Below the pieces are notes generated by a model that was not told the origin of the DNA, made no database searches, and saw only the letters and a program-made list of their open reading frames with translations. Source: Halomarina pelagica (lineage in GTDB: Archaea; Halobacteriota; Halobacteria; Halobacteriales; Haloarculaceae). Taken from it: a DNA stretch of 64,000 nt. Position numbers and translations under genes: made by a program. Positions 6,697 through 27,468 of the stretch are shown piece by piece. The stretch is taken from contig NZ_CP100454.1 of the NCBI RefSeq assembly GCF_024228315.1, positions 1 through 64,000 on the forward strand, read 5' to 3'. Position 1 is the first letter of the stretch, and each line of letters begins with the position of its first letter.

Positions 6697-6744
6697 GGGA
6701 TGCTCGTTCGAGCATCCCCGCACCCCTTTTCGGGGGTGAAAAAC
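6697..6744 (-). promoter_or_regulatory. T-rich box plus hairpin leader (copy 1)
   Basis: On the coding strand, GTTTTTC (6744-6738) is followed by CACCCCC-GAAAAG-GGGTG and then by a perfect 10-bp hairpin, GGGATGCTCG-AA-CGAGCATCCC, ending 12 bases before the ATG of the DUF6166-like gene. The same order of box, GC-rich hairpin and ATG recurs before six other minus-strand genes. It could be promoter plus structured leader, or promoter plus operator. Confidence 0.55.
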
Positions 6745-6939
6745 CGCTCACAGTTACTAATCCAGATGTTCGATGGAACGACGGTGAACTGTCTATCTCT
6801 CATAGCCGGTATCGTCGTTAGTTGGATCGACACGGGCGAACTACAAGCCTAATACGCTCATGGGCAGACTGGGAGCCCGCAACAGCTGGTATAACCCTTG
6901 GACTCGTAGTCCGTCTCGCCGAGATACTATCCAATACAG

Positions 6940-7341
6940 ATGGCCTCGTCCCGATCGAGAATCGTCGTAATAGCCACCCTGCTTGAGAGATGTCTCAAGG
7001 TTTCTACCCATGTTGGGATGCGAGGAGCTCTCTTTGTTGGAAGCTGGTTTGCCCTCTATATCACTGCTGGTGTCATCGGGACTGTATTGGGCTGGTTTCG
7101 TCCTCCATTCGCCTTTCTTTCGCTTGATTCGGATCCCTTCTTCGTTATTGGAAGCGCGCTCATTGGGCTGTTTATCGTCCAAAGTTCGAGCTCATTACTC
7201 CTCTATCACTTTCTCGTCGGATTTGAGGATGAGAAGTCACAATTTGCCGTGTTGATGGGCTTTATCAGCCTCGGATTCGGTGGATCGCTCCTCCGGGTGA
7301 TTCTTCCTACGGTAATTCAGATCTCTACGATTTATCTCTGA
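6940..7341 (+). CDS. Small membrane protein, unknown
   Basis: Up to 133 residues with three likely membrane helices: LFVGSWFALYITAGVIGTVL, FFVIGSALIGLFIVQ and FAVLMGFISLGFGGSLL. No family signature is visible. The start could also be the ATG at 7018 (MRGALFVG), which would place the first helix at the very N-terminus. Its last 17 bases overlap the end of the convergent CPBP gene. Composition is slightly richer in A and T than its neighbours. The steady hydrophobic pattern is the main support for it being real. Confidence 0.5.
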   Translation: MASSRSRIVVIATLLERCLKVSTHVGMRGALFVGSWFALYITAGVIGTVLGWFRPPFAFLSLDSDPFFVIGSALIGLFIVQSSSSLLLYHFLVGFEDEKSQFAVLMGFISLGFGGSLLRVILPTVIQISTIYL

Positions 7342-8251
7342 TTTTACTCTTGATTGCCGGACTGATGCCGAGGCTTCCTGATCGCCACCAGCCATAGAAG
7401 ACGACAAAGATGGCCGCTGAAAGCTGGAACCCTGTTTGGAGAACTCCTGCTTGCCCGATCAGCCACTCTGGCCCCTGGACGGCCAAGGGAGCGATGGAGA
7501 CAGATGGGTCTTGATCGAGGGGGAAGACGTATCCTGATACGAAATTGAATCCCGCGTGAATACCGACCGGGAGTGCAAGTTGCCCTGTTATCAGATACGC
7601 AAGACCCAGTAATAATCCTGCCCCAAGGTAGTGAAACCCGACGAGGAGTGTCGGTGCCGGGTGCACTACTGCAAACAGGAATGCCGAGATTCCCCATGCT
7701 GAAGCAATCGTAACTGGCGAAGAGACCCATCGCAGGTCAAGGCCCTCAATGGCGTTCGTCAGGATATACCCTCGATAGACGAACTCTTCCACAAGTGCGA
7801 TACAGACAGTGACCACGATCGCTAATCCAATATTAGCTAACGTACTGGCCGTCAAGGTGAACGCAGCCTCGGGAACTGCGAGCCATCCCACAGCAAGCCC
7901 TAGGAGTACTGCAGCTGTTGGAATCGCACTCCCAATTAGAGCGCCAGCAACACTATCTGTCAACCAGTACCGATCAATACACAGACCGAAGCGGTAAACT
8001 GGTCTCTTATCGACAAACAGAGCCGCTGCAAACAGCAGCCCGACCGTACAGAGTCCCAACAGCAAGCGGAGCCCAGCAGCTCGCAAGAGTCCCGTTCCAG
8101 ACGGATCGATAAGCGCCGGGATTGAGAGGAAGACGACTGCATAGACCATCCAGAAGAGATAGACTCGAATAAACGCGCGTGGTCGTTGCTCGGTCTCGTT
8201 CCATGCGAGGAGTCGAAGCCGGCGAAGATATTCACGTAAATATGGATGCAT
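7325..8251 (-). CDS. CPBP family intramembrane protease
   Basis: A 308-residue membrane protein with about eight hydrophobic segments. The diagnostic motifs of CPBP (CAAX/Abi, Rce1-like) glutamic proteases are present: EEFVYRGYIL (E-E-x-x-x-R), then FAVVHPAP (F-x-x-x-H), then IHAGFNF (H-x-x-x-N/B). All three motifs are intact, so activity is likely. Known roles in the superfamily range from prenyl-protein processing to bacteriocin immunity; here the target is unknown. It converges with the small membrane gene at 6940 and lies 27 bases downstream of the channel gene at 8279, same strand. Confidence 0.9.
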   Translation of the reverse strand: MHPYLREYLRRLRLLAWNETEQRPRAFIRVYLFWMVYAVVFLSIPALIDPSGTGLLRAAGLRLLLGLCTVGLLFAAALFVDKRPVYRFGLCIDRYWLTDSVAGALIGSAIPTAAVLLGLAVGWLAVPEAAFTLTASTLANIGLAIVVTVCIALVEEFVYRGYILTNAIEGLDLRWVSSPVTIASAWGISAFLFAVVHPAPTLLVGFHYLGAGLLLGLAYLITGQLALPVGIHAGFNFVSGYVFPLDQDPSVSIAPLAVQGPEWLIGQAGVLQTGFQLSAAIFVVFYGWWRSGSLGISPAIKSKIRDKS

Positions 8252-8278
8252 GATACTCTGATTGTGGCAGTGCCTGAA

Positions 8279-9913
8279 TCAACTCATCAGCTCGTTGAAT
8301 TTCTGAATACCGGTATCCGTTCCGGCGATAATGAGCTCGTCGTCCGGTTCGATACGGAACTCGGGGCCAACATCCGTAATCACCTCATCATTACGTTCAA
8401 CGCCAACGACCGTGCACCCTGTCTTTGAGCGGACTAATGCCTCTCCGAGAGTCTGTCCGGTCAGCTTTGGTGCGGGGGTACGGATCACTTCGACTTGCTG
8501 GTCCAGCGAAAGTACGTCCTCGTCTTCGAGGATGGTTGAGGCGATCATTCGACCGCTCACAGTCGCTAGTGATAACACGTAGTCTGCGCCGGCACGATAC
8601 ATCTTCTGGGTACTCTGGGCCTCTTCAACGCGAGCGATAACCTCTGTCTGTGGACTGAGGTCACGAATCACGAGGGTGGCGAACTCGGACGTTGTGTCGT
8701 CAGGAAGCGTCAAAATCACCGACCGAGCATCACTGATCTCCGCTTTTTCTAGTGTTTCGGGATCAGTTGCATCTCCAATAACGTCAACACCCTCCATCTC
8801 CGTCTGGTCAACGACCGTGTACGGGAGATTCGCTTCGGAAAGTGCATCAGTGATCGTCCGGCCGACTTGCCCATACCCCACTACAATCGTCTCACCGTGA
8901 TCAAATCGTCTGATTTCTGAGAGCGTGAGTTCTTTCAACCGCTCGAGTTGATCCTCACGGCCGGTCACGAGCAGTACGGTCCCGTTCGTAAGCGTCGCCG
9001 TCGGCGAAGGTGGACTCTCAAATTCACCTCGGAACCAGGCTCCGATAACGTTGACACCGGCTCGCTCTCGAATGCCACTCTCGGCTAACGTCGTCCCGAT
9101 TAACCGACTTCCACGATGAATCGGCAGTTCAGCGATTTCGATGTCTCCCCCGATTTCGATTGACCCATCCAAATCGCTGGTCACCGAGGTTGTGACTTTC
9201 GAGGCGAGACTCTTGCCAAGAAGTGGGCGTGGTGAAAGAACCTCATCAGCACCGGCAAGCCGGTGATAGGCCGTACGATTCGGCTCTTCGACGACGCTGA
9301 CAATTGGTATCTCCTCTGCGACCTCCTGGGCCGTCAAGACGATGCTCGCATCGACCTGATCAGAGACGTCAGCGACGAGTGCCCGTGCTTCAGGGAGCCC
9401 TGCTTGTTCGAGTCCGTCGACCGACTCTGGATCCTCGTGGATAATCGTGTACTCGTTCTCGTAGAGATCAGTTGCTCGCTCCCGGTCTGGCTCAACGATG
9501 ACATACTCTACATCCCATGATTCGAGTTCGGCGATGAGGGCATCGGTTCGAGGAGTAAACGAACAGATCACCACGTGGTCAGAGAGTCCGTTCTCGATCG
9601 ATTTCGGAACAGTCGTTGAGAGCACATCTTCCAGGAGAGGAAACACCAACACGGGGAGGGCCATAAAAATCAAGGCCACGCCTGTGAGGTCCATCACGAT
9701 GACGAACGCGTTCATTTCCGGACTCTGCCATGGGGCATCCGATCCAAATCCGGTAGTTGTGAACGTCTCAACGACGACCTGTAATGAATGAAGGAATGAG
9801 AGACTCTCTCCTTCATAGATACGCATCCCGTGGTGATAGAGGACAGCGTACACGAGAATGAGCCCAGTCAAGAGAACTGAATAATAGACGGTTCGTCGCT
9901 GCCACTTATCCAT
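8279..9913 (-). CDS. Potassium channel protein with two RCK modules
   Basis: A 544-residue protein. Two N-terminal membrane helices (about 9-28 and 67-95) flank a pore loop reading TFTTTGFGSDAPW. Two tandem NAD-binding RCK modules follow: TrkA-N (VVICSFTPRTDAL, then ETIVVGYGQVGR) and TrkA-C domains. The layout is a two-helix ligand-gated potassium channel. The filter is unusual: TTTGFGS instead of the canonical TVGYGD. That resembles the single pore loop of Trk/Ktr-type carriers, so selectivity or gating may differ. The first RCK lacks a clean GxGxxG while the second has GYGQVG, so probably only the second binds nucleotide. It lies with other K+ genes at 10668 and 11177. Confidence 0.88.
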   Translation of the reverse strand: MDKWQRRTVYYSVLLTGLILVYAVLYHHGMRIYEGESLSFLHSLQVVVETFTTTGFGSDAPWQSPEMNAFVIVMDLTGVALIFMALPVLVFPLLEDVLSTTVPKSIENGLSDHVVICSFTPRTDALIAELESWDVEYVIVEPDRERATDLYENEYTIIHEDPESVDGLEQAGLPEARALVADVSDQVDASIVLTAQEVAEEIPIVSVVEEPNRTAYHRLAGADEVLSPRPLLGKSLASKVTTSVTSDLDGSIEIGGDIEIAELPIHRGSRLIGTTLAESGIRERAGVNVIGAWFRGEFESPPSPTATLTNGTVLLVTGREDQLERLKELTLSEIRRFDHGETIVVGYGQVGRTITDALSEANLPYTVVDQTEMEGVDVIGDATDPETLEKAEISDARSVILTLPDDTTSEFATLVIRDLSPQTEVIARVEEAQSTQKMYRAGADYVLSLATVSGRMIASTILEDEDVLSLDQQVEVIRTPAPKLTGQTLGEALVRSKTGCTVVGVERNDEVITDVGPEFRIEPDDELIIAGTDTGIQKFNELMS

Positions 9914-9974
9914 AACTGAGCAGAGTCACTCAACCACACTAAACCATGTGGAGTCGCATACCCTTCAGTGGCTC

Positions 9975-10208
9975 TTACTCTTCGAGCGAAGTCGTGAGTG
10001 TATATCCCGCATCGGAAAGCGCGGCTACGATGTGGGACTCGTGTTCGGGTTCTATCTCACCTTGTAAGCGAATGGTAGCGTTCTGGATATCCTCGAAGGC
10101 GAAGTGATACGAGACAATCGCGAACTCACCCTGTTCGTCGGTTCCCATGACCTCGACGACGACCTCATCAGCCCATTCGTATGTTTTTGTATCAGTTACT
10201 TCCTCCAT
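9975..10208 (-). CDS. Small conserved-looking protein, unknown
   Basis: A 77-residue acidic protein starting MEEVTDTKTYEWADEVVVEV. It alternates strands and a helix (VVVEVMGTDEQGEFAIVSYHF, EHESHIVAALSDAGYTL), resembling a small beta-alpha-beta domain such as an ACT-like or ferredoxin-like half. No catalytic residues stand out. It sits between the channel gene and a zinc-ribbon gene on the same strand, inside the potassium-handling block, so a regulatory role there is possible but unproven. Confidence 0.55.
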   Translation of the reverse strand: MEEVTDTKTYEWADEVVVEVMGTDEQGEFAIVSYHFAFEDIQNATIRLQGEIEPEHESHIVAALSDAGYTLTTSLEE

Positions 10209-10367
10209 CGACGCTCTCTATTAGAGTTCGTGGGTTCGGTATAAGAGAATCTCGGCAGTCCGTCCACTCGCAAGAATAACTTCACAAACGGACTCTGAAC
10301 TCTCAGATTTGGGTTCAGTGAATCGTGACCACACAATAGAACTGAGGAAACCCTACTCTTCTCAGGG

Positions 10368-10511
10368 TTAAAGGAGCTGGCGGCCACATTCCTCACAATT
10401 CTCTAGCCGGGGGTCCACCTTCGCACCACAGCCAGGACATACGAGATCTACGTTGGAAAAGAGGAGGGTGTTGTTCCTAAAGCGTTGATAGTATTTCTTC
10501 CAATCAACCAT
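10368..10511 (-). CDS. 47-residue zinc-ribbon protein
   Basis: This small gene starts at ATG 10511 and ends at TAA 10368. The translation begins MVDWKKYYQRFRNN and contains CPGCGAKVDPRLENCEEC. The two knuckles, CPGC and CEEC spaced by 14 residues, form a classical zinc ribbon, followed by GRQLL. The N-terminal 24 residues are basic and aromatic. Function unknown; such mini-ribbons often act as nucleic-acid or protein adaptors. It lies 159 bases upstream of the gene at 9975, same strand. Confidence 0.6.
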   Translation of the reverse strand: MVDWKKYYQRFRNNTLLFSNVDLVCPGCGAKVDPRLENCEECGRQLL

Positions 10512-10667
10512 ACCTCTCTCGTTATCTAGGTTCTTATGGGTCTTTTGGGACTCCCACGGAAATCATCGATAACACGCTCTATGACCAAACCTGAGCGAAC
10601 CTCAACTCACACCCCTTTCTCAAGAAGAATAGCGGGGTTTATAGAATTCACCCGTCTTCGTCCGAGC

Positions 10668-11168
10668 ATGGTCATTTACGAAGCGGATGTTCCGGGCGTC
10701 GGAAAACGCTACGAGGTGGAAACTGGTGATACTGAACGATTCGTAGTCATTGTCCACCACGATGGCAAACGAGAGATTTTCCGTCGTGATCACCCAGATG
10801 CCGATGCTGAGAAACTCTTCGAGTTCCCGGCTGGTGTGTCGCGAGAGATTGTAACTGCACTTCAGGGTGTAGACTTCCAACCGCTCGATCTCGATGATGT
10901 CGATATGCCACTCGGAAACGCAATTATGGAGTGGGTCGAAATCCCTGATGACTCTCCACTCGCCGGTGAGACCATCCAAGCAGCACAGCTCCGCCAGAAG
11001 ACTGGCGCAACCGTTGCTGCCATCCAACGAGAGGATGACACTCTCGCCAGCCCGAAAGCGGACACCGTTCTCCAGCCCGGTGATATCCTCGTTGTCATCG
11101 GAACTCGGCCCGAACAGAAATCGTTCGAATCCCTGATCAAGACTGGATCTACAGAGACATCGAACTAA
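10668..11168 (+). CDS. KhtT-like antiporter regulatory subunit (TrkA-C)
   Basis: A 166-residue cytosolic protein. The N-terminal half (MVIYEADVPGVGKRYEVETG to about residue 75) matches the small domain that precedes TrkA-C in KhtT-type subunits. The C-terminal half is a TrkA-C/RCK-C domain (LAGETIQAAQLRQKTGATV to ILVVIGTRP), which binds nucleotides such as c-di-AMP in relatives. I chose ATG 10668 because the upstream extension is rich in arginine and unlike the family. The antiporter gene starts 8 bases after its stop, so the two form a regulator/transporter operon like khtT-khtU. Confidence 0.88.
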   Translation: MVIYEADVPGVGKRYEVETGDTERFVVIVHHDGKREIFRRDHPDADAEKLFEFPAGVSREIVTALQGVDFQPLDLDDVDMPLGNAIMEWVEIPDDSPLAGETIQAAQLRQKTGATVAAIQREDDTLASPKADTVLQPGDILVVIGTRPEQKSFESLIKTGSTETSN

Positions 11169-11176
11169 TTTCTCTC

Positions 11177-12367
11177 ATGGCTGGAGCACTACTCTTAGAG
11201 GTCGGTATCGCACTCGTTACGCTTGCTCTCGTTGGGGCGCTCGCCCATCGATTCCGGCAGTCAGTTATCCCTGGCTACATCGCCGCTGGGATTCTCGTTG
11301 GGCCGTACGTCCCGACAGAGATCGGCGGCATCTCGCTTCGACTGGTCGGGAATAGCGAATTCGTCAGCACTGTTGGCGAACTGGGGATTATTCTCCTCCT
11401 GTTCTTCTTGGGATTGGAGTTTAATGTGGGAACATTGGTCGCAAATAAGACCCGGCTCGCAAAGCTCGGAGGGCTCGATCTCGTTCTCAATGGGATCATG
11501 GGGGTCCTCATCGGGTACGTGTTCGGCTTTGGAGTGACCGGTATCATCCTTATCACGGGAATTGTCTACATCTCGTCGAGCGCGATTATCACAAAGTCGC
11601 TTACAGATGCTGGGTGGCTCGCGAACCCCGAGAGTGACGTTATTCTGAGCACGCTCGTTGTTGAGGACATTGTCATCGCCGTCTATCTCGCGGTTGTTTC
11701 TGCACTTGTGCTGGGTGGGGGGACATTCGCTGAAGCAACGATGACGGTCGTCCAGGCGTTCGTCTTCTTGGCCGCGCTTGCCGCTGTTGCCTATCTCGGA
11801 ACAGACTACATCGAACGGATCTTCGACGTTGGGCCGGACGAATTGTTCGTCCTTCGTATTGTCGGGGTTGCAGTGCTGATTGGTGCAATCGCCCTCTCGA
11901 TTGGTGTGAGCGAAGCGGTGGCTGCCTTCTTTGTCGGCACTGCCTTCAGTGAAACTGACCTCATCGAACGAATCGAACATCTCGTCACCCCCCTCCGGGA
12001 TATTTTCGCAGCAGTGTTCTTCTTCTCAATTGGGTTGTCCACCGACCTCCGAGTCGTCGCTGGTGTAGCGCTTCTGTTACTCGTTGCCGTCATTCTGACA
12101 ACTGGAACGAAACTGATCAGTGGCTATGCGAGCGGGAGAGTGTATGGGCTGAGCACCCTCCGATCAACTCGTGTCGGAATGGGATTAGTTGCTCGCGGCG
12201 AGTTCTCACTCATCATCGCGACGCTAGCGAGTACGAGTGCGATTCCCGTGATTAGGAACACAGTTCCTGCATTCGCTGTTGGATACGTCCTTGTGATGAG
12301 TCTTCTTGGAACGCTGTTGATTGAGTATGAGGATACCATATCTTCCGTGCTTGGCATCTCTCCGTAA
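11177..12367 (+). CDS. CPA2 cation/proton antiporter (KhtU/KefB-like)
   Basis: A 396-residue protein with about 12-13 membrane helices. CPA2 hallmarks are visible: GYIAAGILVGPY near residue 35, LLLFFLGLEF near 75, VEDIVIAVYLAV in the ion-binding helix, and FFSIGLSTD near 285. There is no C-terminal RCK domain, which is supplied by the preceding gene. The expected role is K+ (or Na+) efflux in exchange for protons across the membrane. With the K+ channel protein at 8279 it makes a potassium-homeostasis cluster, sensible for a cell that keeps molar K+ inside. Confidence 0.92.
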   Translation: MAGALLLEVGIALVTLALVGALAHRFRQSVIPGYIAAGILVGPYVPTEIGGISLRLVGNSEFVSTVGELGIILLLFFLGLEFNVGTLVANKTRLAKLGGLDLVLNGIMGVLIGYVFGFGVTGIILITGIVYISSSAIITKSLTDAGWLANPESDVILSTLVVEDIVIAVYLAVVSALVLGGGTFAEATMTVVQAFVFLAALAAVAYLGTDYIERIFDVGPDELFVLRIVGVAVLIGAIALSIGVSEAVAAFFVGTAFSETDLIERIEHLVTPLRDIFAAVFFFSIGLSTDLRVVAGVALLLLVAVILTTGTKLISGYASGRVYGLSTLRSTRVGMGLVARGEFSLIIATLASTSAIPVIRNTVPAFAVGYVLVMSLLGTLLIEYEDTISSVLGISP

Positions 12368-12482
12368 GGATTCTAGATCAAAATCCACGGTCACCTCCTC
12401 ATGAAACCTCTCCTGCACCAGAAGAACTAGGACGTCCGCTGGGTCTGAGAATTGCTCAGAGGTGGTATCTGATGTAAAATCA

Positions 12483-12878: not shown

Positions 12879-12887
12879 TGTTGGACC

Positions 12888-12931
12888 GCCCCGGTCAAAC
12901 CGGGGCACCCTCTCCTGCCCGGACGAAAAAC
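12888..12931 (-). promoter_or_regulatory. T-rich box plus hairpin leader (copy 2)
   Basis: The coding strand reads GTTTTTCGTCC (from 12931), then a spacer, then the hairpin GCCCCGG-tttga-CCGGGGC (12906-12888), and the ATG nine bases later. This is the same arrangement as at 6697, 13873, 19035, 19527, 19799 and 27447. It gives this gene its own promoter, apart from the genes upstream. Confidence 0.55.
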
Positions 12932-12955
12932 AGCTCCTAACGCGTTCTCGATCAA

Positions 12956-13321
12956 TTAGCGCTCGGCGCCGTATACGATCTCTGAGGGTGCTTCGTACCC
13001 ACAGTTCCGACACTCGAACCAGCGCTGAACTTTCGCGCGGTCAGCCGTTTTCCCTCCGACTACCACATCGCCGTTCAGACACTCCGGACAACTCAATTCG
13101 GGCGCTGGCCTGTCACGGAGCGCGTTCCGAAACGCCGTCGCGTCCTTTGTCTCATACCCTCGCGACCAGACCGGGTAGCCGTCAACGAGGATCGCTCCAC
13201 GCCATTTGTACCGGTAGGAGTCCGGGGCTCGATGCAGGACAGCTCGGGCACCCGTCTCAGTGTTCCGACACTCGAGAGTAGGCGTGCGATTTCTCCGTCG
13301 CCAGTTTGTGATTCGGGACAT
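12956..13321 (-). CDS. Zinc-ribbon plasmid-type protein, unknown
   Basis: A 121-residue protein starting MSRITNWRRRNRTPTLECRN. The N-terminal half is basic and beta-rich (GARAVLHRAPDSYRYKWRGA), with IL-VDGYPVWSRGYETK. The C-terminal third holds a zinc ribbon, CPEC and CRNC spaced by 24 residues. This looks like a small nucleic-acid-binding protein of mobile elements. It begins 3 bases after the stop of the 13325 gene, so the pair is translationally linked and probably expressed from the leader at 13873. Confidence 0.75.
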   Translation of the reverse strand: MSRITNWRRRNRTPTLECRNTETGARAVLHRAPDSYRYKWRGAILVDGYPVWSRGYETKDATAFRNALRDRPAPELSCPECLNGDVVVGGKTADRAKVQRWFECRNCGYEAPSEIVYGAER

Positions 13322-13324
13322 CGG

Positions 13325-13816
13325 TTAGAAGTGGACGTCGGCAGGCACAATCCAGAGGTCCTCGCTCTCGTCGAGAATCCGATCGAGCTGGGCGCGATGG
13401 CGGATGCCGCTCGCGTGCTCGGTGTACAGGAATACCGATGGACCGTCGTAGGCGCCGACCTGGTGGAAGGCGTGCCGGGCGAGGTCCTCGTCGCGCATAA
13501 TCTCTTCATCACTGAGGTCGTCGAGGGCCTCCTTCACCCGGTCGAGGTTCCGCTGGAACTCGTCCTCGGTCGCGTCCCAGCCGCGTTCCAGCAGCTCCTC
13601 TCCATCGTTGGAATCCACGGGCGCAGCCACCGGCAGGTCGCCCCATCGGGCTGAGCCGGCAACTGATGTCCCATCTTCGTCGAACGTCACATAGTAATCG
13701 AAGACAGCGCCAGCGTGGGGGACCGCGCCGACGAGTCGATCGAACACCGTCTTACCAGTGGCGAGAGCGTCGTCTCGCGTCGATGCCTCTACGAGCGTGT
13801 AGATGACCATATGCAT
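13325..13816 (-). CDS. Plasmid-type protein, unknown
   Basis: A 163-residue acidic protein beginning MHMVIYTLVEASTRDDALAT. An alpha/beta pattern is seen: a strand VIYTLVEA, helix DDALATGKTVFDRLVGAV, strand FDYYVTFDEDGT, helix EFQRNLDRVKEALDDL, and a C-terminal LWIVPADVHF. The ending resembles that of the broken gene at 20038 (DIWLVPAIALQ), and both carry an R-x-x-x-L-x-x-IL-D/FED-x-DD/ED pattern, so they may be distant relatives. The start could also be the second methionine two codons later. It is the first gene of a two-gene unit with 12956. Confidence 0.7.
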   Translation of the reverse strand: MHMVIYTLVEASTRDDALATGKTVFDRLVGAVPHAGAVFDYYVTFDEDGTSVAGSARWGDLPVAAPVDSNDGEELLERGWDATEDEFQRNLDRVKEALDDLSDEEIMRDEDLARHAFHQVGAYDGPSVFLYTEHASGIRHRAQLDRILDESEDLWIVPADVHF

Positions 13817-13872
13817 TGGTTCTCACCTCGGTCTGCCGACGCACCTGACTGTACACTACGTCACTACGGGAT

Positions 13873-13904
13873 GCGCCGGCACCCATCGCCGGCGCTCGAT
13901 AAAC
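13873..13904 (-). promoter_or_regulatory. T-rich box plus hairpin leader (copy 3)
   Basis: The coding strand reads GGGTTTATCGA followed by GCGCCGGC-gatgggt-GCCGGCGC, a perfect 8-bp hairpin. The distance to the ATG at 13816 is longer than in the other copies (about 80 bases from the box). Here the box is GTTTATC, closer to a standard haloarchaeal TATA element, which supports a promoter role for the box in all copies. Confidence 0.5.
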
Positions 13905-13959
13905 CCTCCTCACCCCGTTGGACGAACCATATACAACGATTGCCACTGTAGCTGCCCAC

Positions 13960-18590: not shown

Positions 18591-19019
18591 CTACTCTTTC
18601 TTTTCCGCACCTTCGTCGACGGTGATCGTCAGATCGCCGGTCTCGTAGTCAGCCTCGAACTGAACGTCGAACACCTCCGATTCGTAGGCGGCGTGGTAGG
18701 CACGGTGGCGTTCGAGCGAGCCAGTCGCCTTGAAGTGGAAGAACGCAGCAGCGGTGTACGGGTTGCTCTGGGTTTCGATCTGTGTTTCAACTGAGGCTGG
18801 GAGCGCGATCTGTGGCGTGTCGGTGTCGATACTCGCTGCGAACGCCTTCGCCTCCTCGACAGTCGCTTGCGGATGCGCTGGTGTCTCGCCAGTCAGCACG
18901 TTCACTGGCGTCTCTGTGTCGTCTGTGAACAGGACGTCTTCGAAGGTCTGTGTCCCGAGAACCGCGTCGGGGCCCAACTCGCAGTCGTGGAACGGATCGT
19001 CGGATAGTTCTTCAGTCAT
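18591..19019 (-). CDS. Plasmid-type acidic protein, unknown
   Basis: A 142-residue protein starting MTEELSDDPFHDCELGPDAV. The middle contains a helix-rich part (ATVEEAKAFAASIDTDTP) and a motif NPYTAAAFFHFKATGSLERH, rich in aromatics and histidine, then a beta hairpin DYETGDLTITVDEG. No family is certain. It converges with the DUF892 gene, 3 bases apart, and has its own box-plus-hairpin leader. I regard it as part of the same minus-strand mobile-element gene set as 12483-13816 and 19113-19785. Confidence 0.68.
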   Translation of the reverse strand: MTEELSDDPFHDCELGPDAVLGTQTFEDVLFTDDTETPVNVLTGETPAHPQATVEEAKAFAASIDTDTPQIALPASVETQIETQSNPYTAAAFFHFKATGSLERHRAYHAAYESEVFDVQFEADYETGDLTITVDEGAEKKE

Positions 19020-19034
19020 GGAATCATGAGCCCA

Positions 19035-19066
19035 CGAGGGCTCAGTCCTTCCAGCCCTCGAAAAAC
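19035..19066 (-). promoter_or_regulatory. T-rich box plus hairpin leader (copy 4)
   Basis: The coding strand reads GCTGTTTTTCG, then the hairpin CGAGGGCT-ggaaggactg-AGCCCTCG (19060-19035; 8-bp arms, 10-base loop), then 15 bases to the ATG at 19019. The box overlaps the first base of the stem, as in copies 1 and 7. Confidence 0.55.
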
Positions 19067-19112: not shown

Positions 19113-19493
19113 CTACCCCTCAATTGGCTCGAGGGACCTGAGGTCAGCGTGGAAGACCTCTCCGTCGCGAACGACGTACCGCTTTGCCAGGACCGGGAAG
19201 CGACATTTCGTGAACCCAGCTGTCTGGATGTCGAGTACCTCGTCTAGTTCGAGATAGTCGGCAAGCGTCCGGAGGAACTCGTGGGTCACGATGCCGCCGT
19301 CGTAGTCCGGAAGACCGTCCTCCCGGGCTTTGTATACCTCGAAATCATCGTCGCCCCAGATGGTGAGCTCGCCGTCTTCAGTGACCTCCCAGTTGAGCGT
19401 CCCGAAGCAGTGGCTCTCGCAGAGCTCGCGGACTGTTTGTGCGTCCGATACGATTGCGCCGGTCGACGTCGTCGCTGCTTGGAGTGTTGCCAT
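19113..19493 (-). CDS. Plasmid-type acidic protein, unknown
   Basis: A 126-residue protein starting MATLQAATTSTGAIVSDAQT. It has an early Cys pair in RELCESHCFGTLNWEV, a beta stretch ELTIWGDDDFEVYKAR and a second half VTHEFLRTLADYLELDEVLD. The C-terminal third (KCRFPVLAKRYVVRDGEVF) is beta-rich. No catalytic signature is evident and I do not recognise a family. It has its own hairpin leader and is separated from the gene at 18591 by 93 bases. Confidence 0.65.
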   Translation of the reverse strand: MATLQAATTSTGAIVSDAQTVRELCESHCFGTLNWEVTEDGELTIWGDDDFEVYKAREDGLPDYDGGIVTHEFLRTLADYLELDEVLDIQTAGFTKCRFPVLAKRYVVRDGEVFHADLRSLEPIEG

Positions 19494-19526
19494 AGATTGT
19501 ATTCGGGGGCGTTCTCCTACCCCGCA

Positions 19527-19546
19527 CCCCCTCTAGGGGGATAACG
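19527..19546 (-). promoter_or_regulatory. T-rich box plus hairpin leader (copy 5)
   Basis: The coding strand reads GTTCGTTATC, then CCCCCT-ag-AGGGGG (19540-19527), then GTGCGGGGTAGG, and the ATG at 19493. The box is GTTATC, weaker than in the other copies, but the order and spacing match. Confidence 0.45.
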
Positions 19547-19596
19547 AACGTATCCTGAGATGAACTGGGAAGAAGTACTGTTCGACGGTCGTGTCG

Positions 19597-19785
19597 TCAG
19601 GAGTCTACGTGGACGCCGGCGTCCTCCGTGGCAGCTGGTCGAGTGAGGAGACTCACCTGCTCCAAGAGCGTCACCGCTGTGTCGATTCGCTCCCAATCAG
19701 CGGAATCCAATTGCTCGACATCGATATCGTTGAGATTACTGAGCGCGCGGTGCAGCCGGTACCCCGGTGTATCTCGCGGATCCAT
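19597..19785 (-). CDS. 62-residue protein, unknown
   Basis: A short acidic protein starting MDPRDTPGYRLHRALSNLND and continuing with a helix DSADWERIDTAVTLLEQVSL. The composition (acidic, helical) and the box-plus-hairpin leader at 19799-19820 suggest it is expressed. No function can be assigned. It belongs to the minus-strand series of this block. Confidence 0.55.
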   Translation of the reverse strand: MDPRDTPGYRLHRALSNLNDIDVEQLDSADWERIDTAVTLLEQVSLLTRPAATEDAGVHVDS

Positions 19786-19798
19786 TTGGACGCCTCCG

Positions 19799-19820
19799 CC
19801 GCTTTGCGGTGACGAAAAAC
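19799..19820 (-). promoter_or_regulatory. T-rich box plus hairpin leader (copy 6)
   Basis: The coding strand reads GTTTTTCGTCA (from 19820), then the short hairpin CCGC-aaa-GCGG (19809-19799), then 13 bases to the ATG at 19785. GTTTTTCGTC is identical over ten bases to copy 2, which points to a shared sequence-specific signal and not to structure alone. Confidence 0.5.
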
Positions 19821-20933: not shown

Positions 20934-21021
20934 CTGTGGTCGTGAACTGTGTTGCTCCGGTTTCGCGTTTAAATATTCACTGCACTCCACTGCTCTGGTT
21001 GAGTATATAAGCTCGAGAATT

Positions 21022-21104: not shown

Positions 21105-21105
21105 T

Positions 21106-21708
21106 ATGCTCCTTGAGCCGCCCGCGCGTGAACGCGGATTCAAGAAGGAGCGACTGCATCGCGTCCTCTGTACTCACCCCACGGGTGATCTGAGCACGTA
21201 CGAAGTGGCCAAGCGTGCAGACGTCTCTCAGTCGTGGGGCTACGACTACCTCGGTCAGCTCGAAGCGGCTGGTCTCATCGACAATACGAGGGTAGTCGAT
21301 CCAACGGCCCTCTACGAGCACTGGCGCAAAACACGGGTCCCGCCAAACGATCTCAGCGTGTCGCTCCAGCAGCCACGCGACCAGCTTCAGGAGACCGGAC
21401 TCGAGTACGCCCTCACGACGTACGAAGCCGAGAACATCCACCAGGGATTTCTCTTCGTCTCCGAGACGGCCTTATACGTGAAGCCCGACGATATCGAACA
21501 GTGGCTTACGTTCATCGAACAGCGAGGATTGATTGGAGGTGGGAACACGGAATTCCGGGTGACCGACGAGTACGTCTTCTACAACACCCAGACGATTGAC
21601 GGTGTTCGGACGGTATCGATCCCACAAGTGATTGTTGACCTCCTCGACGAGGACGGCCCTGCTGTCGAGGCTGCCCATCGCCTGATCGAGAGGTATCACA
21701 ATGAGTAG
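21106..21708 (+). CDS. AbiEi-like winged-helix antitoxin/regulator
   Basis: A 200-residue protein with an N-terminal winged helix-turn-helix ([43 protein letters not shown]) and a C-terminal domain (about 85-200) of strands and helices ending [10 protein letters not shown]. The gene overlaps the next, a nucleotidyltransferase, by 8 bases. That order, HTH regulator then NTase, is the AbiEi/AbiEii type IV toxin-antitoxin layout, used against phage and to stabilise mobile elements. Similarity is by architecture; I could not test homology. The three upstream palindromes fit autorepression. Confidence 0.75.
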
Positions 21709-22528
21709 CGGCGACCGAAGCCAGTACGTCGACGCGGTGACCAAGCTATCCGAGCGGGAACTGCAGGATATCGCCGCGCCCGCGAACCCACCAGTGTGTC
21801 TGCTTGGCGGGTGGGCCGTCCACCTGCACGTTACAGGAGGATTCCAGGATGTCTATGATCGGCCCTACATCGGGTCGCGCGATATCGACCTCGGCATCCA
21901 TATCAAGCCGGACTGGACGACCGAGGAGCTACCCATGACGCCGGTCGCAACGACGCTTCAGCAGATCGAAGACGAACTCGGCTATACCCGGGGTCGGTTC
22001 GGCTTCTATCAACAGTTTCATCGGGAAACCGGAGAGCGCTTGAGTGACGAGGCAGCGAAAGACCACCCCCCACATAACATCTTTCGCGTCGATATCGACA
22101 TCATCCCCGACACCACCGCACTGGATGCGTTCCACGATGTCTTTGGCTTCAGGCCGCCCGCAGAACCATTGCTCGAACCCGCATTTACGGCTAGACGGGC
22201 GGAGGCACTCAATGACTACGTCTCCTGGGACGCACCTACGGCGGTTCTCATTGCCGCCCCGGAGCTGCTCGCAGCGATGAAAGTCCGTGCTTTTCCCCAG
22301 CGGGATAAGAGCCACAAGCGCTTGAAGGACCTCACTGATCTGCACGCGCTCCTCTGGTACGTCACCGAGTACGACGAGATAACGGAGGCCGTCCACACCC
22401 ATCTGAGCGACGACGATATCACGGCCTTTCGAGACGTGACAACAGATGAGGTATACGACCGCGCAGCGCGGCTCATCGGCGTCGATACATCCCTTCTCAG
22501 TCAGTCGATTGAACGCCTCTTTGTGTAG
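21701..22528 (+). CDS. AbiEii-like nucleotidyltransferase toxin
   Basis: A 275-residue protein with the DNA polymerase beta-type nucleotidyltransferase fold. [10 protein letters not shown] near residue 33 gives the G-G/S motif. SRDIDLGIH near 55 gives the D-x-D metal ligands. VDIDIIPD near 127 supplies the third acidic residue. A later K-V-R-A-F followed by [13 protein letters not shown] resembles motif IV of AbiEii. AbiEii and MenT toxins transfer nucleotides onto targets such as tRNA ends. The start ATG overlaps the antitoxin stop by 8 bases, implying coupled translation. The core motifs look intact, so it is probably active. Confidence 0.8.
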
Positions 22529-22823
22529 CTAATGGCTGAGTTATCTCACTCGCCGATAGAGTGCTGGTCTGCTCCGTTTGTTCGAGGAGTTCGTCAGGTG
22601 TATTTCGGTGGGTTCGCACCGTCACCGGCGACGAGTCCGCGATGTCGGCGATTGTCGACTGGCTGAGTCCCAACCATTTCCCCGGCCGGCTTTATTCATA
22701 TCTCATGGACACCGTCTCGAGGTTGTGGCTACGTGCGCAGCGAAGCGAGCACGTAGCGGAGGGTGGGGTGGCGGGGCTTGGGCCGGTCCGGCTCATAGCA
22801 AAAAAGAAGGCCGCGACGATAGC
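22529..22823. other. Non-coding with a 9-bp hairpin
   Basis: No gene is apparent. A perfect hairpin GCTACGTGC-N12-GCACGTAGC lies at 22728-22757, 66 bases beyond the stop of the minus-strand OB-fold gene and 200 bases after the AbiEii stop. The run AAAAAAGAAGG at 22800 follows. The hairpin could be a transcription end shared by the two converging genes, though archaeal termination mostly uses T-runs. Confidence 0.35.
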
Positions 22824-23723
22824 CTACGCTTCCCACCACCGACCGCGCTCAGGGAAGTACACGGTGCTCCACCCGGTCAGGGCCACGGAGACACGCCCAT
22901 TGTACCAGTTCTTCGCCGCTCCGTGAATCCGCACGCGCTCGCCCTCTTCGATCCACGGAGCATCCGACGCCTTCCAGCTCGTCAGTTTTGTACGACCGCT
23001 CTCGTCCTCGATGAGCCCAACTTGAGCGATGCTCGGACTGGAAGGTTCCCACAGCTGGGTCACAGTCCCTTCGATGCTCACCTCTTTGCGATCGACGTCC
23101 TCGAGCGTCCCGATGGGAACCACCTGTCCCGGCGCCGTCTCTAGTTCTTCGAACACCCCGACGACCGCACTCATCAGGTCTTTCCCACCGACGACGGCTT
23201 CACCCAGTCGCCGACCAATCGCCGCTCGCGACCAGCCATCCAGCTTCTCGGCCAACCGCATCGATTGCTTGTTCACCGCCGCCAGCTGTTCTTGCGCGAG
23301 TTCTGCACGAGGATCGTCTCGCTCTGGGTCCGCCATCGGATTCACGCTTGCCGCCCGCTGCTGGAACTCAGCACGCCGCTCAGCGCTCCGCTTCGCCGCG
23401 ATATCTCGCGTCCGCCTCTCCCGACCGTCTTGCGCCCCCAGCTCTGCCTGGGCACTGATGCGCTCCAGTTCAGCCTCCCGCGCCCGAATGCGCTCTTCCT
23501 GTTCGAGGGTCGCACCGTAGATCCGCTCGTCACTCGTGTCGACCATCCCGTCCGGGTGGTTGGCATCGACCTTCGCCTGCACCTCCATCTGCACCGTCGC
23601 CTGAAACTCTGGGGTCTCGTCGACGACCTCGAAGCCGTCTTCGTCGACCGCCGCTTCGTCCGCTGTTTCGAATACCTGTTCATCAACCGAAACCTCATTA
23701 CTGAAGACGTTCTTACTCGACAT
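22824..23723 (-). CDS. OB-fold ssDNA-binding-like protein
   Basis: A 299-residue protein. Residues 1-80 are acidic and disordered (MSSKNVFSNEVSVDEQVFET). A coiled stretch follows (QEERIRAREAELERISAQAE; RRAEFQQRAASVN) and then a helical part KLDGWSRAAIGRRLGEAV. The C-terminal 95 residues form an OB-fold of the RPA type (KEVSIEGTVTQLWEPSSPSI, RTKLTSWKASDAPWIEEGER, RIHGAAKNWYNGRVSVAL). It resembles single-stranded DNA-binding proteins of haloarchaeal plasmids and viruses. No zinc finger is seen. It is likely a replication or repair helper of the mobile block. Confidence 0.78.
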   Translation of the reverse strand: MSSKNVFSNEVSVDEQVFETADEAAVDEDGFEVVDETPEFQATVQMEVQAKVDANHPDGMVDTSDERIYGATLEQEERIRAREAELERISAQAELGAQDGRERRTRDIAAKRSAERRAEFQQRAASVNPMADPERDDPRAELAQEQLAAVNKQSMRLAEKLDGWSRAAIGRRLGEAVVGGKDLMSAVVGVFEELETAPGQVVPIGTLEDVDRKEVSIEGTVTQLWEPSSPSIAQVGLIEDESGRTKLTSWKASDAPWIEEGERVRIHGAAKNWYNGRVSVALTGWSTVYFPERGRWWEA

Positions 23724-24554
23724 TGGTACTCACTTGATCCTGGGTACCGCGAAGGCGCTCACTCGGCGTCTTCTTCCGACACCACGACTCTCCAGCCGTG
23801 GCTGTCCACAACGACCAACTCAACCATCTGCGCGCTCTCGCTCGCGCCTTCGCGAGCGCCCCTGGGGCGCGAGCGAGAGCGCGCCATAGGGAGGCCACCC
23901 AACCAGCACCGCGCGCCGACCCGCCCGGAGCGAGCGGCCAGCGGGATATGCCCGCTCGTGTCCGGCCCGATGCGCGGGTCCGTGTCCAGGGCGACAGTCG
24001 CCCTGGAACGCGAAAGCCCGCAAGGGGCGCAACCGACGGGGATACCCGCTGGCGTCGAGGGCACATTCATTTTAGCCCGGAACGGGCGCGGGCGGTGCGG
24101 AGAGCGCCCGCAGGCCCGGAATGGTCGGTCGCGAGCGAAGCGAGGCGCTCGCGCCTCGAAAGCGAACGGCGACTGGAAGGAGCCGTGAGCAAGCGGAGGG
24201 CGGAAGCGGCGAGCGGGGCGGGCCGTAGAGAAACACCGTTCAACCACTCTCGACGCTCAGTAACACAGTCGATATCCTGGTGGACTCAGAAAGGGCGAGG
24301 CCGCCTCGGTCGTCCCCCGACCCCGCCAAGCACCGAGTGAAACGAGGCGCGCAGCGTGGTCTTCGTGAGCGCAGCGAACGAAGGCAGGGAAGTCGCAGCC
24401 CGCCCAACGGAGTGAGCAGGACCGTCTTCCCGTGGTCGCGGGATGCCGAGCGGCCGAGGGCTTTCATCCGTTATATCCACGTCCTCGACTGAGCTAGTCG
24501 AGTGTTGCAAAATACCGAAGTTATTTATATATTAGTTCGCTAGTATGCAACAGT
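23724..24554. other. GC-rich non-coding stretch with long inverted repeat
   Basis: These 830 bases separate the OB-fold gene from the regulator at 24555. Several long open frames cross it on both strands, but their products are arginine/alanine/glycine repeats typical of stop-poor GC-rich DNA. The most striking element is a perfect 18-bp inverted repeat at 23831-23883 (CGCGCTCTCGCTCGCGCC and its complement, 17-base loop). GCGAGCGAAGCGAGGCGCTC-type repeats recur at 24130-24165. The last 30 bases contain TTATTTATATATTA, the likely promoter of the next gene, and a direct repeat AGTATGC-aac-AGTATGC overlapping its start. It could encode a structured RNA or a plasmid maintenance site. Confidence 0.45.
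23831..23883. repeat. Perfect 18-bp inverted repeat
   Basis: Left arm 23831-23848, right arm 23866-23883, exact reverse complements, separated by 17 bases that are themselves GC-rich. A transcript would fold into a very stable stem. Confidence 0.7.
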
Positions 24555-25478
24555 ATGCTCACAGAAGGCGAGGTTCGCGCCCTCACTGCCCTCCACGGTG
24601 AGCAGACGGTCTCTGACCTCGCAACGAATCTCGATCGGAGTCTCAGCTACACCTCAGAACTCGTTGACCGGCTCGAAACGGCTGGCCTCGTCGAGACACG
24701 TCGACAGGGCAAAACAAAGCAGCTTCGACTGTCGGACGCAAAGGCACTCGAGTTACTCACGGACCTCATGCAGCAGTATTCACACATCGACTGGCCGGAG
24801 CTGTTGTCAGGGGCAGCCCTCCGTGTGTGCTACTACCTCGATACCCCACGGACCGCGACTGATCTCGCACGCCGCGCCGACGTCCACCGAAGTACCGTCC
24901 ACCGGGCGCTTGCCCCGCTTCAACATCGCGGAATCATCTACCAAATCGACACCGGTGCGTACGCACTGAATGACGGCTTCGAACAGCTGAGTGCATTCGC
25001 TCGTGAGCTTGCCCATCACGCCCACCGCCAGACTATCGAAGAGCAGGCCGACACGTACACGATCCTCTGGGAATCTCTCGAGGAGTTCCTTGTGCAGACG
25101 ACGACTGAGATCACCGACGACCACTTCATTCCGACAGGGCCAGACCAATTCCAACAATACGGCCTACTACTCTTGGCACGTGACCGTCGGTACTACCTCT
25201 ATTCGGAGACGTTGGATGACCTCTCCCCGGAGACACTGTGCTGCCACATGCTCGTGATCGATTCGGGCGCACGAGCCCAGTCATACTGTCTGCTCTTGCT
25301 CAGTCACGTCGACATCGACCGCGACGAGCTACGAACACAAGCCGTGAAGTACGGCGTCGATGATGTCGTCGACGAACTCTGTACGTATCTCGACACCAGC
25401 GGTGACCAGCGAACGTCTCGACTTCCGGAATGGGAGGACTTCCAGGAATTGGCCGACGAGTACGGGGTGACAGTATGA
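24555..25478 (+). CDS. Double winged-helix transcriptional regulator
   Basis: A 307-residue protein with two successive MarR/ArsR-like winged helices. The first is about residues 1-60 (TVSDLATNLDRSLSYTSELV, DRLETAGLVETRRQGKTKQL). The second is about residues 85-145 (RTATDLARRADVHRSTVHRA, LAPLQHRGIIYQIDTGAYAL). The C-terminal half is an alpha/beta domain (YGLLLLARDRRYYLYSETLD) that may bind a ligand or partner. The ATG overlaps the direct repeat AGTATGC, suggesting autoregulation. It is adjacent to a decayed convergent gene and 250 bases from the MNT/HEPN operon. Target unknown. Confidence 0.8.
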   Translation: MLTEGEVRALTALHGEQTVSDLATNLDRSLSYTSELVDRLETAGLVETRRQGKTKQLRLSDAKALELLTDLMQQYSHIDWPELLSGAALRVCYYLDTPRTATDLARRADVHRSTVHRALAPLQHRGIIYQIDTGAYALNDGFEQLSAFARELAHHAHRQTIEEQADTYTILWESLEEFLVQTTTEITDDHFIPTGPDQFQQYGLLLLARDRRYYLYSETLDDLSPETLCCHMLVIDSGARAQSYCLLLLSHVDIDRDELRTQAVKYGVDDVVDELCTYLDTSGDQRTSRLPEWEDFQELADEYGVTV

Positions 25479-25663
25479 GAGGATGGCTTCCTCTCCGTAC
25501 TGATCGACGATCTCGGCCATGGCCTCGTCGAAATGCGCATCCTGATGGTCCTTGGGGGTTCTGCGCTCGCTTGCCCACGAGTTCGCATCCTTTCATCGAC
25601 CGACGCAAGAGCCGGGATCTCCGTCTGCTCTCGGATGGCATTGAGTGTATCAGAGTTCGGCAT
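25470..25663 (-). pseudogene. Relic of a small unknown gene
   Basis: Two minus-strand reading stretches look protein-like. From ATG 25663 the first reads MPNSDTLNAIREQTEIPALA followed by SVDERMRTRGQASAEPP. After a frame change near 25545 the second reads KDHQDAHFDEAMAEIVDQYG then EEAILS. They join naturally into one acidic helical protein that runs into the 3' end of the regulator gene. I do not recognise it. Its end is lost, so it is probably a truncated and shifted gene. Support is compositional only. Confidence 0.35.
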
Positions 25664-25732
25664 TCGGTCTGCATGTCTTTGGCAGTCCGACGGTGTTATC
25701 GGTTTTTCTGGTGCGAGTAGTAGTCACACGAT

Positions 25733-26230
25733 TCAGCGGGAGCAGGCGCATTCATGCCGCAATGAGGCGAAATTCAGAATATATCGGTGGACGGCTTCGG
25801 CAAGCGATAGCATCGCGTCGGCTTGCTCGGCACTGGCGACCGTCTCACGATAGTACACCTCGGCTCGGTTCCGCTTCCAGAGTTGGGTCAGGCGATCGGC
25901 AAACGCCTCGCTAAATAGATTCACCGCCCCGCCTTGCTGGTACACCGCTGTATGTTCATAGCGTAAATCCTCCCCAGAGGCGTGTCCGCGATGGAGGAGA
26001 TAGAACTGAATACTGCGCTCGACAGCGACGAACGATGCCTCGATCACCACTGTGTAGTAGCCGTTCTGCTCACGGAGCGTCCGCGCTGCTTTGAGGAGTC
26101 GACAGGCCTTCCGTAGCTGGACGAGGGCGGCGTCAGAGACATCTAAATCGGATTCGCCTGTTTGCCCGCGGGTCTCCTGAAAGGCTGCCTCGGCGTCGAT
26201 GAGTGCATCGTCGACGTAGCTATTGTCCAT
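25733..26230 (-). CDS. HEPN-domain protein paired with MNT
   Basis: A 165-residue helical protein starting MDNSYVDDALIDAEAAFQET. The helices VQLRKACRLLKAARTLREQN, GYYTVVIEASFVAVERSIQF and the following YLLHRGH fit a HEPN bundle. The region RNRAEVYYRE corresponds to the usual R-N-x4-H site, but no histidine is at the expected place, so RNase activity is doubtful. It overlaps the upstream nucleotidyltransferase gene by 11 bases. HEPN/MNT pairs such as HepT/MntA are toxin-antitoxin systems in which the MNT partner modifies the HEPN toxin. Confidence 0.72.
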   Translation of the reverse strand: MDNSYVDDALIDAEAAFQETRGQTGESDLDVSDAALVQLRKACRLLKAARTLREQNGYYTVVIEASFVAVERSIQFYLLHRGHASGEDLRYEHTAVYQQGGAVNLFSEAFADRLTQLWKRNRAEVYYRETVASAEQADAMLSLAEAVHRYILNFASLRHECACSR

Positions 26231-26903
26231 TCGTGAGCACCTCCTCTTTGAGCTGCGTGAGCGTTTCGGAGGTTTTGAGCGTCAGGCCCGTAGCGAAGAT
26301 CTCGCGCAGTCGATTCCCGTAGCGGTGTGCGCTCTCGACGGATTCGACGAGGACGTGGAATTTGTAGCGGTCACCATCGAAGGCTTCCTCGTTCAGCTCC
26401 GATGTAATTTCGTGGGCGGTTTGCTGGGCTGTCGCCTGGGTGCCGTCCACGAGCACGAAGCAATCGATATCGCTTCGCCGGTCGGCGTCCCCTCGGGCAA
26501 CACTGCCAAAGAGGACGATTCCGTGGATCTCCTCTATCTGGTCAGTTAACCTTCTCACGAGCTCTCGGACGGGGACGTGAAATTCGTCCTGTGGGATCTG
26601 AATGATCGGATCGTCGGGTTTGCTAAGTCGGCTACGATTGATACGAACGAGTTTTTTCCGCCCGGCGTGCTCAACTTCGACGAAGTCAATTGCTTCGAGA
26701 TCGTCGATGGCTGACGAAATACTTCGATGGGGGTGATTCGTCGCTCTGCTCAAATCCCGAATTCCGAACGCAGTATAGGGATTGTCGACGAGTACTGCAA
26801 GAATTTCCCCCGTAGACTTGTGTCTAAAGAGGGTGGTAGGAGGGACGGGGATCGGCAGCTCGAGTGATGTGCCCTTCTGGATACTTTGACTGCCCATGGG
26901 CAT
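26220..26903 (-). CDS. Winged-helix plus MNT nucleotidyltransferase
   Basis: A 227-residue protein starting MPMGSQSIQKG. Residues 25-95 form a winged helix (AFGIRDLSRATNHPHRSISS, AIDDLEAIDFVEVEHAGRKK). Residues 110-227 form a minimal nucleotidyltransferase with HGIVLFGSVARGDADRRSDI-DCFV, matching G-S-x10-D-x-D. The fusion of a DNA-binding domain with an MNT domain suggests it both represses the operon and modifies its HEPN partner. I chose the ATG at 26903, because the upstream frame runs into the end of the previous gene (stop at 26929, same strand). The MNT active site looks complete. Confidence 0.82.
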   Translation of the reverse strand: MPMGSQSIQKGTSLELPIPVPPTTLFRHKSTGEILAVLVDNPYTAFGIRDLSRATNHPHRSISSAIDDLEAIDFVEVEHAGRKKLVRINRSRLSKPDDPIIQIPQDEFHVPVRELVRRLTDQIEEIHGIVLFGSVARGDADRRSDIDCFVLVDGTQATAQQTAHEITSELNEEAFDGDRYKFHVLVESVESAHRYGNRLREIFATGLTLKTSETLTQLKEEVLTNGQ

Positions 26904-26928
26904 TTTTACTCCCCAGTAGTTAAATAGG

Positions 26929-27122
26929 CTACGGCAACGATGAGTCTGCACCCGTCGCAGGCAGGGTGAGCAAGCTTTCAGGATCTAGTCCGGCTTGGAT
27001 CACACAGTCAACACAGGCTGGATGCGAAACCCGCTTGTCCTCATCCCAGGTAACGTCTTCTGCACGCTCTGACCCGGGAACGCATCAGAGAACCCATATC
27101 CTGAAAGCGTCTGCTGCATCAT
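26929..27122 (-). pseudogene. Frameshifted small zinc-finger gene
   Basis: From ATG 27122, which overlaps the stop of the upstream gene as ATGA, the frame reads MMQQTLSGYGFSDAFP. One base is missing in the GGG run near 27073-27078. In the shifted frame it continues GSERAEDVTWDEDKRVSHPA then CVDCVIQAGLDPESLL, ending at TAG 26929. With the base restored it would be a 64-residue protein with a CVDC knuckle and nearby histidine. It stops 25 bases before the MNT gene, so it is a member of that operon. It is either a real mutation or an error in a G-run. Confidence 0.5.
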
Positions 27123-27409
27123 TCGTCTACTCTGCCAGCATCGCAGGCAGTCGACCAGCCGCGATGAAAGACAGCGAGCTGTCGAATCGAGTCGAACGCC
27201 TCGCCACTCGGTTCGTGAACGAGGACTCGCTGCTCGGCGACCGCCGTCACGACACCGTCGTCGACGAGGTCACTCACGAGTTGTCGTGCGGTCGTCTCGT
27301 CGACGTCCGCCGTCGACACTCGGGCTGCATCCCGATCCTGTGCGAGGAGTTCGGTTTCATGCCGCTCGTGATCGGCTGCCGTGTCGTCGAGTATGTCTGG
27401 ATCGGTCAT
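27119..27409 (-). CDS. Small acidic protein heading MNT/HEPN operon
   Basis: A 96-residue protein starting MTDPDILDDTAADHERHETE. The first half is a charged helix. The second half resembles a small winged helix (STADVDETTARQLVSDLVDD then GVVTAVAEQRVLVHEP). It is followed with ATGA overlap by the broken zinc-finger gene and then by the MNT and HEPN genes, so it is the promoter-proximal gene of a four-gene unit. It is preceded by a T-rich box and hairpin leader. Function unknown; an operon regulator is plausible. Confidence 0.62.
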   Translation of the reverse strand: MTDPDILDDTAADHERHETELLAQDRDAARVSTADVDETTARQLVSDLVDDGVVTAVAEQRVLVHEPSGEAFDSIRQLAVFHRGWSTACDAGRVDE

Positions 27410-27446
27410 ATGAATTCACGCTCCGGCACGCTCGCAGGCGCGCCTC

Positions 27447-27468
27447 GCGCCTTTCGGCGCCGACAAAC
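27447..27468 (-). promoter_or_regulatory. T-rich box plus hairpin leader (copy 7)
   Basis: The coding strand reads GGGTTTGTCG, then GGCGCCGAAAGGCGC (stem GCGCC/GGCGC), followed by another GCGCGCC element, and the ATG at 27409. The GGGTTTGTC box resembles GGGTTTATC of copy 3. Confidence 0.45.

Follow-up and report, generated by a model that had tools for sequence, protein, structure and literature searches.

The window analysed here comprises the first 64 kb of the main contig (3.54 Mb) in a haloarchaeal genome of 4.6 Mb. Its plasmid-type genes lie in the order p96, RPA, p62, p126, p140, p163, DUF7568, DUF7567 and DUF6166, with chromate/MFS genes and other cargo inserted among them. Across 12 annotated plasmid regions, the recurring order is p62, p126, DUF6735, p140, p163, DUF7568, DUF7567, DUF6166 ... 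DUF6610, p115, ArdC-like ... Orc1, and the cargo inserted in it differs between plasmids. Since the kept gene order is split by cargo and VirB4 found no match in the window, the window looks like an integrated plasmid remnant.

Seven minus-strand genes of the window are each preceded by a T-rich box, a hairpin and then the start codon, and all seven boxes reported in an initial annotation of this DNA were confirmed in place. Element 1 (6712..6744, minus strand; 29.8 bits with a covariance model of the element) starts with GTTTTTC and has a left arm CACCCCC(G), a right arm (C)GGGGATG and a loop with AAAAGGGGTG; downstream of it is the DUF6166 gene (PF19663; 6280..6684, minus). Element 2 (12897..12931, minus; 19.7 bits), ahead of the DUF7567 gene (PF24451; 12483..12878, minus), combines GTTTTTC with the stem CCGGG(C)/(G)CCCGG and a loop containing GGAGAGGGTG, and its right arm has an alternative downstream partner, GCCCCGGTTTGACCGGGGC. 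The best-scoring copy is Element 3 (13870..13904, minus; 31.8 bits), with GTTTATC, the stem GCGCCGG/CCGGCGC and the loop CGATGGGTG. It precedes p163, encoding an unknown protein (13325..13816, minus), closely 3' of which is the DUF7568 gene (12956-13321) without an element of its own. Three further copies stand before genes for unknown proteins: Element 4 (19035..19066, minus; GTTTTTC, stem CGAGGGCT/AGCCCTCG, loop GGAAGGACTG; 18.4 bits) before p140 (18591..19019, minus), Element 5 (19516..19549, minus; box GTTCGTTATC, stem CCCC/GGGG, loop TAGAGGGGGTGC; 24.1 bits) before p126 (19113..19493, minus), and Element 6 (19788..19820, minus; 13.1 bits) before p62 (19597..19785, minus). Element 6 has GTTTTTC and a stem that is weak in the window and clear in homologs, where it reads GCGCC/GGCGC. 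Element 7 (27437..27468, minus; GTTTGTC, stem GCGCC/GGCGC, loop GAAAGGCGCGA; 27.5 bits) lies upstream of p96, a gene with a weak DUF7342 match (27119..27409, minus). From the start of the box to the start codon, Elements 1-7 span 60, 53, 88, 47, 56 (52 from GTTATC), 35 and 59 nt, respectively, and the copies at 12931 and 19820 do have GTTTTTCGTC in common, as first described. The plus-strand cargo genes were said to lack the element; this holds, the sole plus-strand match not being before a cargo gene.

The box is enriched and is tied to the stem. The window has 12 copies of GTTTTTC where 3.5 are expected, a number that no shuffle attained; in the whole genome, GTTTTTCG is found 92 times and the reversed pattern 23 times. 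Among the 98 GTTTTTC boxes in the genome's islands and plasmid DNA, 10 have a strong GC stem immediately behind them; reversing the sequence gives 0 of 29, and 400 kb of control chromosome has 0 of 9. A covariance model was then built from a small gap-free seed, mostly copies from other plasmids, and realigned with the model; a first MAFFT alignment of the elements was dropped because it was not structural. The model recovers all seven window copies (13.1-31.8 bits). In the genome's own islands and plasmids (860 kb) it finds at least 28 full-length copies of 16 bits or more, including six of the seven in the window, and in the control chromosome (400 kb) one. Folded alone, single copies are frequently no better than shuffles; thus, single-copy folding is uninformative and the case for the element depends on comparison between plasmids. 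In some copies, the conserved hairpin differs from the best-folding hairpin of the lone sequence; the copies at 6744 and 12931 have another hairpin further 3' that outdoes or rivals the conserved one in folding. The folding of lone copies is also what would favor a chance pairing of T-rich boxes with GC stems, an explanation whose probability is practically nil because conservation across genera already refutes it. The seven window copies are real and homologous. The initial annotation was right about all of them and too narrow about their extent, as the element is far more widespread. Within the same genome, at least five more element blocks were seen (C1 at ~157-174 kb, 262-266 kb and 358-374 kb; C4 at ~95 kb; C5 at 44-55 kb), indicating that related plasmids entered repeatedly.

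The element is compact (28-35 nt) and consists of a box, a GC stem and a G-rich loop. The box has the consensus GTYTDTY, mostly GTTTTTC, and is followed by 0-4 nt, the left arm, a loop of ~10 nt and the right arm. The loop is conserved, about GARGGGTG or GARGGGYG; the stem, of 5-8 bp, is GC and varies freely in sequence. The distance from the start of the box to the end of the hairpin is mostly 28-35 nt. From the end of the hairpin to the start codon it is 4 to 66 nt overall and narrow inside most families: 4-8 nt in p62, p73 and p101 (~5 nt in the p62 homologs) and up to 66 nt in p163. The arms show Watson-Crick pairing of 0.96, a figure inflated by the selection of stems for pairing, against 0.56 when right arms were dealt between families. 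There are 36 different inner arm pentamers, largely still complementary. The palindrome arms vary from one gene family to the next and still pair, which makes a classical double-stranded operator unlikely. The "shared promoter plus structured leader or operator" proposed in the initial annotation holds insofar as a regulatory element is shared across a plasmid backbone. An ordinary double-stranded promoter or operator, with the box and loop read in duplex by a dedicated factor such as a plasmid TFIIB and with the palindrome as a dimer site, might be argued for from three observations: a plasmid TFIIB gene lies within the block and itself bears the element, the box is at TATA distance, and some families have TTAACCAAC inverted repeats directly adjoining the box. 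A dimer site, however, needs conserved half-sites, in place of which the 36 pentamers are found, and we regard this explanation as improbable.

Which genes carry the element was determined on upstream regions gathered by protein homology, blind to the motif. The box and stem stand upstream of many or most members of at least 18 gene families; these include ArdC-like antirestriction, TFIIB, DUF6166, DUF6735, DUF6610, DUF7567 and small unknowns, and the ArdC-like gene (PF08401) has the element in 30 of 30 cases. In 15 other families on the same plasmids, no copy has the element upstream. The element-free families are chiefly cargo (P-type ATPase and HTH genes) and genes overlapping, or directly adjoining, the one before them (DUF7568, p121 and p107b). 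This split was repeated on more genomes. The genes downstream of the element have homologs on ~75-100 haloarchaeal plasmid records each. The initial annotation would have put the pattern down to chance had homologs elsewhere lacked the element; they bear it. One element per gene in a modular gene order might suggest an attC-like recombination site of gene cassettes, and the T-rich tract that follows the upstream gene's stop codon might suggest a terminator. For a cassette site, no inverted partner core site was seen, and the gene order is largely kept across genera. Nothing about a terminator calls for a hairpin after its T-tract, and isolated copies have nothing preceding them to terminate; adjacent coupled genes without an element upstream tell against both. 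Both readings were rejected on geometry, and we consider them very improbable.

In these scans, the element was found in haloarchaea only. Under strict filters, the covariance model finds it in 68 of 145 haloarchaeal genomes and in 34 of 59 genera. A strict pattern scan of 84,980 prokaryote genomes (species) gave 52 matches, every one of them in haloarchaea, and a strict pattern gave no match in viral contigs. Laboratory haloarchaea with a plasmid of this kind include Halobacterium salinarum R1 (PHS1), Haloferax mediterranei (pHME132) and Natrinema J7-2 (pJ7-1). Whole plasmids (n = 12) carry 7-42 copies each, and only one copy is discordant in strand among the 150 best plasmid matches. The discordant copy, at 25270-25301 (+) of Haloferax mediterranei pHME132, may mark an inversion. 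On three complete plasmids, the 44 matches scoring 16.8 bits or more all share one strand, and nearly all fall within one ~30 kb arc. On a plasmid of 107 kb (W04), the arc runs from 46.5 to 76.7 kb; it starts right after the VirB4 cluster, co-oriented with it, and stops before an Orc/AAA gene on the opposite strand. The genome's own C5 plasmid shares this layout. The T4SS genes are co-oriented with the elements in all three complete plasmids and lie ahead of the arc where mapped; they themselves have no element match of 16.8 bits or more. Neither a relaxase nor an oriT was found. Directly 5' of the T4SS cluster, xseA/xseB (exonuclease VII) were seen at 31287-32524 of NZ_CP101324.1, and xseA is present in pJ7-1 too.

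How might such an element act? It is established for H. volcanii that 72% of mRNAs are leaderless, that the TATA box is TTWT and that the BRE is CGAAA (PMC4983044). Like this canonical haloarchaeal promoter, the partly TATA-like box often contains TTWT and is suitably spaced from the presumed start, the distance from the box to the end of the hairpin matching the TATA-to-start spacing; about a quarter of boxes (GTTTGTC, GTTGTTC, GTCTGTC and others) would be poor TATA boxes. Unlike it, the element has no BRE, and its interval between box and start is a palindrome. Upstream of the box, the base composition is flat, with no AT-rich position and no BRE. A TATA-like hexamer at -36 to -18 before the box is absent from 300 of 302 copies, and the 32 copies without a co-directional ORF upstream have only two TATA-like matches between -80 and the box. 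A layout with the TATA box upstream of the hairpin, which would make the hairpin an RNA leader, is thus unsupported by the base profile and by the motif count. The absence of an upstream TATA box, together with the fitting spacing, favors promoter function. The start codons of p62, p73 and p101, 4-8 nt past the hairpin, fit near-leaderless mRNAs. On the other hand, 269 of 301 copies are close behind a co-directional ORF, so that an operon-internal use as RNA is possible.

The main stem bears on the same question. Its departures from Watson-Crick pairing, counted in family alignments from sequence alone, are 19 G.U, 32 A.C and 66 others. The same count on haloarchaeal SRP RNA, a control whose pairs were picked via an RNA folding model, gives 89 G.U, 17 A.C and 27 others. 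The difference in G.U to A.C has a Fisher value of 9e-9 on related sequences uncorrected for descent, and by alignment column (~9:12 in the element versus 26:15 in SRP) the contrast is weak. That the main stem shows no G.U excess argues for maintenance of the palindrome as DNA. We propose that the element is a dedicated gene-start element of a family of T4SS-bearing haloarchaeal plasmids and their integrated remnants, one of which lies in the window, and that it serves, as DNA rather than RNA, as a self-contained promoter, a proposal to which we give about an even chance. The T-rich box would stand in place of the TATA box, ~27 nt ahead of the point where transcription starts; the palindrome would occupy the interval from -24 to ~+1 up to that point, and the RNA would start at, or just past, the right arm. 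Going a step further than promoter function, the element may work as an extruded or single-stranded hairpin.

The main rival of this promoter reading is an RNA leader switch. Here, the hairpin would be transcribed, and a protein of the plasmid or host, or translation itself, would select between pairing of the left with the right arm and pairing of the right arm with a third arm, thus controlling translation or termination gene by gene; the U-rich box would be part of the protein site. The third arm comes from DUF6735, p163, DUF7567, p115 and p96, in which the right arm is also complementary to a segment before the Shine-Dalgarno (SD) sequence or start codon, with z values of 1.9-3.1 relative to shuffled downstream sequence. 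An RNA switch with mutually exclusive hairpins fits this second partner. Departures in the third-arm helix include G.U and no A.C, a count that is biased, since the right arm is rich in G and constrained by its pairing in the main stem. Third-arm pairing was therefore dropped as proof of RNA and is suggestive only. The position of most copies between co-directional genes likewise agrees with a switch, as does GGAGG at SD distance in the right arm of p62, p73 and p101. Those three families, however, have no space for a third arm; the main stem is without a G.U excess, isolated copies have no promoter upstream, and a switch does not predict the restriction to one strand of a plasmid arc. We take the RNA switch to be a real possibility, though not the one we would expect. 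Leaders of the nut/put type or riboswitch-like leaders resemble the element in the recurrence of a box and hairpin before genes and in possible alternative pairing; they differ in that the main stem of the element has no G.U tolerance, there is no promoter upstream and Rfam gives no match, the element reaching the gathering score of no family. The promoter reading can accommodate the third arm: if the RNA begins at the right arm, the right and third arms would form a hairpin of the 5' leader, and the left and right arms would pair in DNA. This conjectured arrangement would join all the observations.

Two known systems offer parallels to a hairpin promoter. In bacterial leading regions, anti-defence families are confined to the T-strand; the Frpo hairpin serves there as a promoter on the entering ssDNA, and its stems rebuild -35 and -10 boxes in duplex (PMC11541004). 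The element resembles Frpo/ssi as hairpin DNA before co-oriented backbone genes, including ardC-type antirestriction, on a T4SS plasmid, and in the co-orientation of elements and genes on one plasmid strand (44/44). As for a leading-region location, the element arc adjoins T4SS genes, and no oriT was found. No sequence similarity to Frpo/ssi was seen. The design also differs, as the GC-rich stem of the element, of 5-8 bp, is without recognizable promoter boxes, the T-box is outside the stem and unpaired, the loop is conserved, the host is archaeal and there are up to 42 copies per plasmid. In the early promoters of phage N4, the hairpin structure is kept while non-conserved stem bases vary, so DNA hairpins with variable stems can serve as promoters (PMC4496689). 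The element is similar in having a short hairpin just before the (presumed) start, a conserved loop, a free stem and several copies before early genes; N4, in contrast, has a 3-base loop and a phage polymerase, where the element has a loop of ~10 nt and a T-box. Among the annotated plasmid genes examined, no cognate single-subunit RNA polymerase was found by annotation. By analogy with Frpo in F and with the N4 early promoters, the ArdC-like and other backbone genes could be expressed from the strand that enters the recipient. We tentatively suggest, as a possibility and no stronger, that archaeal conjugative plasmids provide each establishment gene with its own ssDNA hairpin promoter, so that antirestriction genes and others would be switched on from the incoming strand ahead of second-strand synthesis. 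If true, archaea would have an equivalent of the bacterial leading-region system that relies on another promoter design.

No description of the element was found in the literature searched, which covers subscription journals thinly and is thus weak evidence; it looks like an apparently undescribed type of gene switch. With one searchable signal, a set of co-regulated genes can be delimited on plasmids from much of the haloarchaea. Unnamed DUFs account for many members of this set, and the neighboring genes are candidates for anti-defence functions. A hairpin promoter would, to our knowledge, be the first such in archaea and would open the expression of genes soon after plasmid entry to direct testing; an RNA switch would instead mean a large undescribed archaeal regulon.

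Two further features of these plasmids were observed. Operator-like repeats, TTAACCAAC-N~22-GTTGGTTAA or lone halves of it, stand before several plasmid genes, located upstream of p107 and p272 in one plasmid region (L076) and also of DUF6610, p386 and p62. In p272, the inverted repeats abut the T-box. They are probably the site of a plasmid regulator or an Orc-type protein. The second feature, upstream of the plasmid RPA-like gene, is a highly structured non-coding stretch of ~600 nt with strong conservation (window 23724-24400, minus; L076 9580-10263; L082 6200-6798; also in L073, L077, L081, L083 and L084). It has no convincing Rfam match. It contains an invariant long hairpin, GGCGCGCTCTCGCTCGCGCCC...GAGCGAGAGCGCGC, and 12 predicted pairs changed on both sides, with a consensus energy of -204 kcal/mol. 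Candidate roles for it are those of a large non-coding RNA, an oriT or a site of replication. The plus-strand element match of the window, at 24065-24097 (+), is weak (16.1 bits) and lies inside this region; the same weak opposite-strand match recurs at the homologous sites of L073 (6474-6506, minus), L082 (6389-6421, minus) and L084 (3449-3481, minus).
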